This document shows positions 4,901 to 7,473 of a stretch of DNA of 38,851 bases, piece after piece. A program made the position numbers and the translations under genes. The DNA is from Geothermobacter ehrlichii (GTDB taxonomy: Bacteria > Desulfobacterota > Desulfuromonadia > Desulfuromonadales > Geothermobacteraceae), in assembly GCF_008124615.1 (NCBI RefSeq), contig NZ_VNIB01000019.1:1-38851 (forward strand), in the 5' to 3' direction. How positions within the stretch are numbered: the first letter of the stretch is position 1; every line of letters starts with the position of its first letter. The notes under the pieces are model-generated. The model was not told the origin of the DNA and searched no databases. It saw only the letters and a list, made by a program, of their open reading frames with translations.

Positions 4901-5773
4901 TTATCCGAAGCGGATGAGAAAAACCCCGGCCAGAATCATGCAGGCGGCCAGAAACCGGATGCGCCCGCAGGTTTCGCCGAGAAACAGCACGCCGATCAGC
5001 ACGCCGATCAGCAGGCTGACCTGCCGCAGGGGAACGGCATAGCTCATCGGCGCCAGCTTCAGCCCGAACCTGAAGGTGAGAAAGGAGCTCATCATCACCG
5101 GTCCGCTGCAGAGAATGATCAGCCGGTTCCGCCGCCATTCGGCCAGCAGCCTCCCCGGCGCGTCGAACGGCAGGAGCATGAGGGTCAGATAGACAAACAT
5201 CGACATCACCAGCAGGTAGGTGAAATACAGGGGGGGATAGCCGGAAACGCCCAGCTTGTCGGTCACGGCGCCGACCGAATAGACGAATCCGGCCGCCAGC
5301 GCCGCCTGCACCGAGGCATCGCCGAGACGCCGGAAGGGACGCAGCACCTCGTCGAGGGCCAGCCGCCGCAGCTGCACGCAATAGGCCCCGGCTGCGATGC
5401 AGACAATGCCGGCCAGACCGACGGCGCTCAGCCGCTCACCGAGAAAGAGAAAGCCCCAGAGCGGGACGTAGAGCATGGCGGTCTGCGACAGAGGATAGGT
5501 CAGGGAAAGGTCACCCTCCCGGTAGGCCCGGCCGTTGAAGAGATGATAGGACACGAAGCAGAAACCGCCGGCCAGGGCCAGCAGCAGGGTCCGCCAGTCG
5601 GGCACGGGAAAAGGCTGCGGCAGAAACAGCAGGAGCAGGTTGAGCAGGCCGCCGGAACAGAAGAACATCCACCAGATGAAAATCGTCTTGTCGCGGCTCT
5701 GCTTGACCAGAAGGTTCCACAGGGCGTGCGCCAGGGCCGACAGCACGATGAGTATGAAGGCGAAGGTCGTCAC
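4901..5773 (-). CDS. DMT/EamA-family transporter
   Basis: The 290-residue protein is almost entirely hydrophobic, with about ten predicted transmembrane helices in two similar halves of five, as in the drug/metabolite transporter superfamily. The first half contains the recurring helix-end motifs ALWNLLVK and PLSQTAMLYVPLWGFLFLGE; the second has PLRQVSLLIGVLIGVLFLGE at the matching place. That duplicated pattern identifies EamA repeats. The substrate cannot be told from sequence. The GTG start at 5773 has only a weak ribosome binding site. A short inverted repeat lies about 40 nt upstream and may be an operator. Confidence 0.88.
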   Translation of the reverse strand: MTTFAFILIVLSALAHALWNLLVKQSRDKTIFIWWMFFCSGGLLNLLLLFLPQPFPVPDWRTLLLALAGGFCFVSYHLFNGRAYREGDLSLTYPLSQTAMLYVPLWGFLFLGERLSAVGLAGIVCIAAGAYCVQLRRLALDEVLRPFRRLGDASVQAALAAGFVYSVGAVTDKLGVSGYPPLYFTYLLVMSMFVYLTLMLLPFDAPGRLLAEWRRNRLIILCSGPVMMSSFLTFRFGLKLAPMSYAVPLRQVSLLIGVLIGVLFLGETCGRIRFLAACMILAGVFLIRFG

Positions 5774-5813
5774 CGGAGCATTCTAACCGAAGGCCGGTGG
5801 AGAGCGAAGCGTT

Positions 5814-5830
5814 TTTTAGCCAGACTAAAA
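5814..5830. promoter_or_regulatory. Short inverted repeat upstream of the DMT transporter
   Basis: TTTTAG-CCAGA-CTAAAA is a 6-bp perfect inverted repeat with a 5-nt centre in the gap before the transporter start. Its size and position suit a protein-binding site. No cognate regulator is in the window and the site could be fortuitous. Confidence 0.3.
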
Positions 5831-5870
5831 CATGGCGCTTTGACTCCCCCTGCTCTGCTGGTAAGCTGAA

Positions 5871-6082
5871 TCCTGAATCAATGAGCTCATCATCGGCGAA
5901 TAGCGCAAGTCATTGACCTGCCTGCGGTTTGCAAAAATCACCGGCGAACCTGTGGGTGCGCCCTGGATTTTTGCAAACCGCATTCAAACCAAGCACTTGC
6001 ACTCTTCATCCGGCATGAACTTGCACTCTTCATCCGGCATGAACTTGCACTCTTCATCCGGCATGAACTCACTGATTCAGGA
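5871..6082. mobile_element. MITE-like palindromic element before fumC
   Basis: Two arms form a long imperfect palindrome. The outer 20 bp (5871-5890 versus 6063-6082) match at 18 of 20 positions, and the innermost 16 bp (5924-5939 versus 5966-5981) match perfectly. If only one copy of the 24-bp tandem unit in the right arm is counted, both arms are exactly 69 nt and 52 of 69 positions pair. The 26-nt centre makes its own hairpin, GGCGAACC-TGTG-GGTGCGCC. No coding capacity is visible. I found no clear target-site duplication. The element ends 8 nt before the fumC Shine-Dalgarno sequence, so it must be transcribed in, or must define, the fumC leader. Confidence 0.75.
5995..6066 (+). repeat. Three perfect tandem copies of a 24-bp unit
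   Basis: The unit starting ACTTGCACTC and ending GGCATGA occurs at 5995-6018, 6019-6042 and 6043-6066 without a mismatch. It lies in the right arm of the palindromic element, whose left arm has only one degenerate counterpart (near 5887-5910). Two units therefore look like a recent expansion. A multiple of three, it could be read through without a frame change, but no coding role is apparent. Confidence 0.95.
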
Positions 6083-6102
6083 GAACGAAAAGGAGGAGCC
6101 AG

Positions 6103-7473
6103 ATGGAACGCTATCGCACCGAAACCGATTCCATGGGGGCCATGCAGATACCCGCCGACGCACTTTACGGCGCCCAGACCGCCCGCGCCGTCGAAAACTT
6201 TCCCGTCTCCGGGTGGCGCCTATCGCGGCCGATGATCCGGGCCCTGGGCCTGATCAAGCAGCAGGCGGCGCTGACCAACGGCGAGCTGGGCCTGCTGCCG
6301 GCCGAACTGGCGGCGGCCATCGCCGGGGCCGCCGGCGAGGTGGTGGACGGCCGACACGACGAACACTTTCCCGTCGATATCTTCCAGACCGGATCGGGGA
6401 CCAGCAGCAACATGAACGCCAACGAGGTCATCGCCAGCCTGGCCGGCCGCCAGCTGGGCCGAAAAGTACATCCCAACGACCATGTCAATCTGGGACAGTC
6501 GAGCAACGACGTCTTTCCCACCGCCCTGCACCTGGCGGCGACAGCCGAGGTTCACGACCGGCTGCTGCCCGCCCTGTCGCGACTGCGCGACCGGCTGGCG
6601 GCCAAGGCCGACGATTTCGACGACATCGTCAAGCTGGGACGCACCCACCTGCAGGACGCCGTCCCCATCCGGCTCGGCCAGGTCTTCTCCGGCTACGTTC
6701 GGCAGCTCGAACTGGGCGTCCGACGCATCCGGCAGGCCACCGAAGGACTGCTCGAACTGCCCCTGGGCGGCACCGCCGTCGGTACCGGCCTCAACACACA
6801 CCCGGAATTCGCCCCCAGAACCTGCTCTCGCCTGGCCGAGGTCACCGGCCACCCCTTTGTCGAGGCAACCAACCATTTCGAGGCGCAGGCGGCGTGCGAC
6901 GCCGCCGTGCAGCTGAGCGGCGCCCTGCGGACCTGCGCCGTCAGCCTGTTCAAGATCGCCAACGACATCCGCTTTCTGGCCAGCGGACCACGGGGCGGCT
7001 ACGGTGAGCTGAAGCTGCCGGCCGTCCAGCCCGGATCATCGATCATGCCCGGCAAGATCAATCCGGTGATGGCCGAAAGCCTGTTGCAGGTCTGCGTCCA
7101 GGTGATCGGCTTCGACAGTGCCATCGGCCTGGCCGGCCTGTCGGGCAATTTCGAGCTGAACGTGATGCAGCCCCTGCTGGCACACAACCTGCTCGAGGGC
7201 ATCCGCCTGCTGGCCAACGCCGCACAGCTGTTCGCCGACCGCTGCGTTGACGGCCTGCAGGCCGACCGCGAACGGTGTGAAGAGATGGTCGAGAAGAGTC
7301 TGGCCATGGTCACGGCGCTGGCGCCGGAAATCGGTTACGACCGGGCGGCCGACCTGGCCAAGCAGGCCTTCGCGGAGGGAAAGACCATACGCGAGATCTG
7401 CCTGGAAAAGGAGATTCTGCCGGCCGAGCGACTCGAAAGGCTGCTCGATCCGCGACCGCAGACCGGTCCGTAG
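6103..7473 (+). CDS. fumC: Fumarate hydratase, class II
   Basis: FumC interconverts fumarate and L-malate without an Fe-S cluster, in the TCA cycle or its reductive branch. The 456-residue length and motifs are typical: QTGSGTSSNMNANEV (95-109), GRTHLQDA with the base-site His182, and the superfamily signature GSSIMPGKINP (311-321) with the catalytic Ser. The ATG has a perfect AGGAGG 6 nt upstream (6091-6096). It is the only large plus-strand gene in the left half and appears monocistronic. Its leader contains the palindromic element at 5871-6082, so fumC expression may be affected by that structure. A hairpin follows the stop. Confidence 0.97.
   Translation: MERYRTETDSMGAMQIPADALYGAQTARAVENFPVSGWRLSRPMIRALGLIKQQAALTNGELGLLPAELAAAIAGAAGEVVDGRHDEHFPVDIFQTGSGTSSNMNANEVIASLAGRQLGRKVHPNDHVNLGQSSNDVFPTALHLAATAEVHDRLLPALSRLRDRLAAKADDFDDIVKLGRTHLQDAVPIRLGQVFSGYVRQLELGVRRIRQATEGLLELPLGGTAVGTGLNTHPEFAPRTCSRLAEVTGHPFVEATNHFEAQAACDAAVQLSGALRTCAVSLFKIANDIRFLASGPRGGYGELKLPAVQPGSSIMPGKINPVMAESLLQVCVQVIGFDSAIGLAGLSGNFELNVMQPLLAHNLLEGIRLLANAAQLFADRCVDGLQADRERCEEMVEKSLAMVTALAPEIGYDRAADLAKQAFAEGKTIREICLEKEILPAERLERLLDPRPQTGP

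Follow-up and report, generated by a model that had tools for sequence, protein, structure and literature searches.

The DNA analysed here, called the window below, is a 38,851-nt stretch of the Geothermobacter ehrlichii genome and is part of contig C19 of a host assembly of 3.24 Mb in 33 contigs. Directly upstream of a gene that we call fumC lies an imperfect palindrome (5872-6081) whose right arm carries three perfect 24-bp tandem units (5995-6066). The features of the locus are as follows.

4901-5773, minus strand: divergent neighbour, a membrane transporter-like protein.
5840-5867, plus strand: probable fumC promoter, TTGACT (5840-5845), 16 nt, TAAGCT (5862-5867), ending 4 nt before the element.
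5872-6081, plus strand: whole element, read as a 162-bp MITE with two extra 24-bp units (210 bp), from alignment to 36 other copies in the same genome and an HMM match.
5872-5885, plus strand: left terminal inverted repeat, 14 bp, CCTGAATCAATGAG, with one change relative to the family tip CCTGAATCAGTGAG and to IS1380-family ends.
5924-5939, plus strand: left half of a perfect 16-bp inner stem, from sequence and fold.
5966-5981, plus strand: right half of the same stem, from sequence and fold.
5995-6018, 6019-6042 and 6043-6066, plus strand: a 24-bp unit in three perfect tandem copies, present once in the aligned copies from other sites.
6068-6081, minus strand: right terminal inverted repeat, 14 bp, whose minus strand reads CCTGAATCAGTGAG.
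6091-6096, plus strand: AGGAGG ribosome binding site of fumC, from sequence and folds, outside the hairpin.
6103-7473, plus strand: fumC, a 456-aa protein of the class II fumarase/aspartase superfamily; best NCBIfam match TIGR00979 (fumC_II), below its cut-off.

The name fumC for 6103-7473 is likely from these sequence matches, and the product of the divergent neighbour (4901-5773) is presumably a transporter of the EamA/DMT type. The 6103-7473 protein also satisfies PRK12273, a broader model for the aspartate ammonia-lyase subfamily.

The palindrome had been recognised in the preliminary description, and its architecture was borne out. Two sets of inverted repeat arms (5898-5950 with 5955-6007, and 5871-5910 with 6043-6082) are each 75% complementary, and in the inner stem GCGGTTTGCAAAAATC (5924-5939) pairs perfectly with GATTTTTGCAAACCGC (5966-5981). 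The predicted RNA fold of 5871-6082 had an energy of -89.9 kcal/mol, compared with -53.5 ± 4.1 for shuffled sequences (n=200; z -8.9), and none of the 200 shuffles folded as well. Comparison with the other copies placed the ends of the element at 5872 and 6081, the outer T (5871) and A (6082) being flank. The end points first given (5871-6082) each took in one flanking base too many, the element without its extra units measures 162 bp rather than 164 bp, and 9 nt rather than 8 separate the element from the AGGAGG. The HMM matched the window copy at 5872-6023 and 6042-6081. An Rfam scan of 5700-6200 gave no match above chance; its sole match had E = 4.1 and lay under the gathering score.

A search with the element plus flanking DNA hit dozens of sites in the host genome. 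Near-full-length copies number about 38, the window copy included. An iterated profile, with orientation assigned by score, aligned 36 other copies over their length, and their 162-bp consensus spans CCTGAATCAGTGAG to CTCACTGATTCAGG. One more near-full-length copy (L079, on contig C3) was found around a lone tip and was left out of all later counts. Pairwise identity among 31 of the host's copies averaged 81% (67-93%). The tip pattern matched 77 times in the host genome and its reversed control not once. Single tips and shortened members (46 to 105 bp) are also present. Five of the shortened members keep both tips: L082 (C4:12339), L089 (C8:110924), L088 (C15:62640), L087 (C15:17866) and L078 (C1:12057). 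Two diverged copies on different contigs, L038 and L040, have common flanks, as if each sat within a longer repeated sequence.

Members of the family occur in other genomes of the order. At E <= 1e-8 they were found in 40 of 136 genomes from nine families, and an earlier search at E <= 0.001 had matched 15 of 58 genomes, the host counted in both. Together with the copies in the host genome, this supports the earlier proposal of a dispersed element. In two relatives the tip pattern matched, with at most one mismatch, 81 times (G003) and 103 times (G004); each yielded about 200 first-look candidates, of which 14 were scored.

We examined the context of 37 copies with a gene caller of our own making. 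No copy falls within a called gene, five overlap a gene end by 5 to 45 nt, and for one no gene was called on the left. At L003, L007, L017, L018 and L026 the adjoining called gene ends within the element, and at L003, L017 and L018 that end falls at the TGA of the tip CCTGA. Of the 26 copies between co-directional genes, 16 point the same way as the genes and 10 the other way, with no clear bias.

The flanks were compared for target duplications. With boundaries taken mechanically from the alignment for all 37 copies, the last five bases of the left flank agreed with the first five of the right flank at 115 of 185 positions, against 58.7 ± 6.3 when shuffled (z 8.9). The 5-bp duplication is perfect in 5 of the 37 copies (0.33 expected) and matches at four or more of its five bases in 18 (2.5 expected); at lengths of 2-4 or 6-10 bp the 37 copies gave no signal. 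An alternative run on 34 copies, from which L024, L038 and L040 were left out and in which the ends of L013, L014, L022, L023 and L027 were moved one base by hand, gave z 9.0 and seven perfect duplications. At the window copy the duplication is a poor one (tgaat/agaac, 3/5). The 14-bp tips have a mean conservation of 0.90 and 0.92 (31 copies), as befits terminal inverted repeats. The consensus, at 162 bp, is well within the 500 bp of a short non-autonomous element and contains no transposase gene. A target duplication of fixed length, dispersal and an empty site in relatives (at one locus only, fumC) are further features of a MITE. The preliminary description had left the choice at "MITE or REP-like"; the 5-bp duplications and IS1380-type tips favour the first, and the same evidence, with no significant element match at five of the seven Y1 transposase loci, speaks against the second.

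IS1380-family transposases are of the DDE type; the ends of these ISs begin with CCT, and their insertion makes short duplications. We searched 58 genomes of relatives with the IS1380-family model NF033539 and then sought IS ends with the MITE tip pattern. The model matched in 21 of the 58 genomes, in 7 of them over the cut-off. Twelve loci with a match over the cut-off were fetched, and both ends were located at 10 of them (six genomes, four with two each); L096 and L102 gave one IS end only. The ten ISs with both ends are 1694-1702 bp long. In three of the ten CCTGAATCAGTGAG is exact at both ends, the other seven departing from it by one or two bases at one end or at both, and 5-bp duplications are perfect at eight. 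Because the MITE tip had itself served as the query for the ends, the duplications are the one independent line of evidence for them. The transposase of G047 is covered end to end by NF033539 (297 bits, cut-off 180). IS and MITE are found in one genome in G017, G047 and G053; in G008, G016 and G041 the IS is present with no MITE match. The ISs have 14-bp tips and a 5-bp target duplication in common with the element but are about 1.7 kb long and encode a transposase, whereas the element has 162 bp and no transposase gene. A blastn-short comparison of MITE and IS interiors gave no convincing similarity beyond the tips.

We treated an intact partner IS in the same genome as supporting, not defining, an IS1380-dependent MITE. 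The host genome has no intact IS1380 transposase and contains a fragment only (C6, 51.5 bits, one TAG stop). Searching five genomes (G000, the host, to G004) with the G047 transposase, a search run without a positive control, gave no match, and no transposase was recognised by eye beside the unpaired tips of the host genome (sites read; frames listed for L076 and L085). With a fragment only in the host and no match in G000-G004, the mobilising enzyme of this lineage is one that we infer; draft assemblies can lose repeated ISs. From the tips and duplications the mobilising transposase is likely of the IS1380 family. In our searches of open-licence papers we found no published link of the element, or of its order, to IS1380.

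We next compared the fumC locus with those of relatives, which were found in 26 of 30 genomes; 20 loci were taken, the host's included. A DNA signature of the divergent neighbour's start was present at 16 of the 20. The pattern TTGACA/T-N15-18-TAnnnT occurred in 14 of 19 fumC upstream regions (own included, L136 skipped), with a spacing of 16 or 17 in every match; shuffles had a mean of 0.11 and a maximum of 2, although we settled on the pattern with the sequences already in view, and the shuffles preserve nothing beyond base composition. The TAAGCT of the window is a weak -10. A general scan of the region returned 0 promoters and 0 terminators (shuffles average only 0.6 terminator-like sites); the putative promoter is proposed from its conservation only. 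An inverted repeat, TTTAGCCAGACTAAAA, lies upstream of it at 5815-5830 and is possibly an operator; similar sequences occur in 9 of 19 fumC upstream regions, own included, by a pattern chosen after looking. At L127 and L128 (G003/G004) the tip-like sequences CCTGATTCAGG and CCTGATCCAGG stand just before the fumC -35, by chance or as a remnant.

The element itself matched significantly only at the window's fumC locus and was absent from the 19 others (in L136, 100 positions are masked as N). In G003 and G004 TAAGCT runs directly into a short leader, an empty site; in the window the order is TAAGCT, GAAT, element, leader. From the end of the promoter pattern to the first matched fumC residue there are 235 nt in the window, 30 in G003 and G004 and 55-98 in the other eleven loci with the pattern.

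With only 4 nt between the insertion and a probable, conserved promoter upstream of it, the element is expected to form almost the whole mRNA leader. Transcription of fumC would then begin within the element or next to it, giving the mRNA a long hairpin at its 5' end. The preliminary description had allowed for either a leader or a block of upstream transcription; the probable promoter upstream of the insertion favours the leader, and a block is unsupported since the neighbour is divergent and no terminator-like site was found in the region (an absence that says little). In predicted folds the ribosome binding site had a mean unpaired probability of 0.47 with three, two or one units and of 0.46 without the element, so that masking of this site by the element is not predicted.

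Two properties of the family are less usual for a MITE: its interior is conserved order-wide, and its two arms covary strongly. We aligned 48 copies, comprising 31 of the host's 38 and 17 of 28 loci fetched from relatives (nine genomes); the loci dropped were incomplete matches and a few that came close to full length. The arms were paired in 89.7% of cells, as against 27-44% with the partner slid. Changes on both sides of a pair occurred in 118 cells versus 40.9 ± 4.9 when shuffled, and in 29 pairs versus 15.6; with the partner slid by 1-3 columns, which keeps relatedness, there were only 15-26. The excess was also seen within the 31 host copies alone (46 versus 17.5 ± 3.4) and within the relatives' copies (51 versus 16.0). 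Conservation of the interior (0.88) is close to that of the tips, and some mismatches are constant (C.T in 48/48, A.G in 45/48).

These patterns point to a hairpin maintained by selection or by templated repair. The constant mismatches speak somewhat against templated repair, though they may simply be ancestral. The hairpin family could on this account be a selected RNA or DNA module that, once inserted in leaders or between the genes of an operon, is kept for mRNA stabilisation or processing, for example as an RNase III substrate, which is compatible with a MITE origin. Covariation, a conserved interior and constant mismatches all lend themselves to such a reading, but related copies inflate covariation, templated palindrome repair or selection on mobile DNA could also give it, the copies between co-directional genes have no clear orientation preference, and the other fumC loci lack the element; we consider it unlikely, though worth keeping in mind.

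The claim of two extra perfect 24-bp copies in the right arm was confirmed. The three units are identical in every letter, and Tandem Repeats Finder reported 5995-6069 with a period of 24, 3.1 copies and 100% matches. Among 98 genomes, own included, the exact unit junction occurred only as the window's two junctions, and no second tandem array was detected, although a strongly diverged one would escape the junction search. Further junction matches in G000, G003 and G004, with two or three mismatches, were read as ordinary single units. The exact pattern ATGAACTTGCACTCTTCATC had three matches in genome contigs, in unrelated organisms, which we attribute to chance. An ancestral dispersed element with one arm expanded later, as first suggested, is in keeping with these results.

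The 24-bp unit is bounded on both sides by a 3-nt direct repeat, ACT (GC-ACT...TGA-ACT-CACTG), which suggests that the array probably arose by slippage there. The units being identical, the event is recent relative to the divergence of the family. A recent event would also suit other routes, namely aberrant repair linked to transposition, unequal crossing-over, or selection favouring binding sites in several copies, and BOX elements of pneumococcus vary likewise, with unequal crossover discussed for them in the available text (PMC3049150); the ACT repeat, however, suits slippage, and other expanded copies were not detected in the 98 genomes; we consider a non-slippage origin unlikely.

We regard it as very probable that the element is a 162-bp MITE with 14-bp IS1380-type tips, mobilised in trans by an IS1380-family transposase, that inserted into the fumC leader and later acquired its array, most likely by slippage. 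A more far-reaching version is improbable by our estimate: an order-wide mobile leader module in which fixed pairs and mismatches would mark a working RNA or DNA structure, which would have replaced the native fumC leader where transcription starts and in which the number of 24-bp units might act as a length-variable dial on fumarase expression.

Two further explanations retain hardly any credence. The first is a REP/BIME origin, with mobilisation by a Y1 tyrosine transposase (RAYT): the element is palindromic, intergenic and dispersed, and the host genome (G000) has seven Y1_Tnp (RAYT/IS200-type) matches. To our knowledge REP/BIME elements make no target duplication, and the 5-bp duplications and IS1380-type tips speak against it. 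No significant element match was found at the five Y1 loci fetched of the seven (best E 0.54), and the element has 162 bp where REPs are given as 20-40 bp in the text available (PMC3733652). The second, that the hairpin has been a riboswitch or attenuator of fumC since ancestral times, has a strong structure directly before the ribosome binding site to recommend it but is contradicted by its absence from the 19 other fumC loci (L136 with its masked stretch), the lack of an Rfam match above chance and about 37 copies elsewhere in the genome; a regulatory role taken on later may still be conceivable.

For the MITE we propose the following history. An IS1380-family transposase, acting in trans on the 14-bp tips and making a 5-bp target duplication, would have mobilised the element, which would have spread through the host genome and across the order, with most or all insertions in intergenic spaces. 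One copy would have inserted 4 nt behind the fumC -10 box, at the very beginning of what is transcribed, with no damage to the fumC promoter or ribosome binding site. A 24-bp stretch in the right arm of that copy would later have been duplicated and then triplicated, most likely by replication slippage at the ACT repeat, helped by the hairpin. The sequences themselves show the dispersed family, its tips and 5-bp duplications, the empty site in two relatives and an array in this copy alone; the identity of the transposase, the promoter, the transcribed leader and slippage are our deductions. Any effect on fumC is conjectural.

The element belongs to a known kind, the MITEs, with unusually wide conservation, and the nearest published analogues that we found, as far as the available texts go, are Chunjie, BOX and MITEPye1. 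The Chunjie MITE of Geobacter uraniireducens (one named copy and 37 more) is likewise a short inverted-repeat element with conserved tips, direct repeats, size variants and partial copies; it measures 178-235 bp rather than 162 bp, and the likeness seen is one of overall architecture (PMC10969869). BOX elements of Streptococcus pneumoniae have IS-like tips, likened to those of ISSpn2, an RNA fold, a variable internal tandem module and a possible 5' leader location, but their modules vary at many loci, whereas one expanded copy was found in the window's family (PMC3049150). MITEPye1 of Paracoccus yeei is another MITE whose tips link it to an IS family; it forms a long stem-loop and is mostly intergenic; it differs in being linked to IS1182 and in having 1-3 copies in chromosomes (PMC11578231). 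Multicopy intergenic sequences, some of them palindromic, are described in Geobacter and Pelobacter genomes, and the present family may be among them, as far as those sources were available (PMC2700814, PMC2996986, PMC3543383).

An abundant repeat of the order, for which we found no name, thus gains a likely mobilising transposase family and a mobilisation that can be tested. At fumC the insertion appears to have exchanged the leader but kept the promoter before it and the ribosome binding site after it. With its conserved interior and the covariation of its arms, the family raises the question of whether some bacterial MITEs may be kept for their structure.
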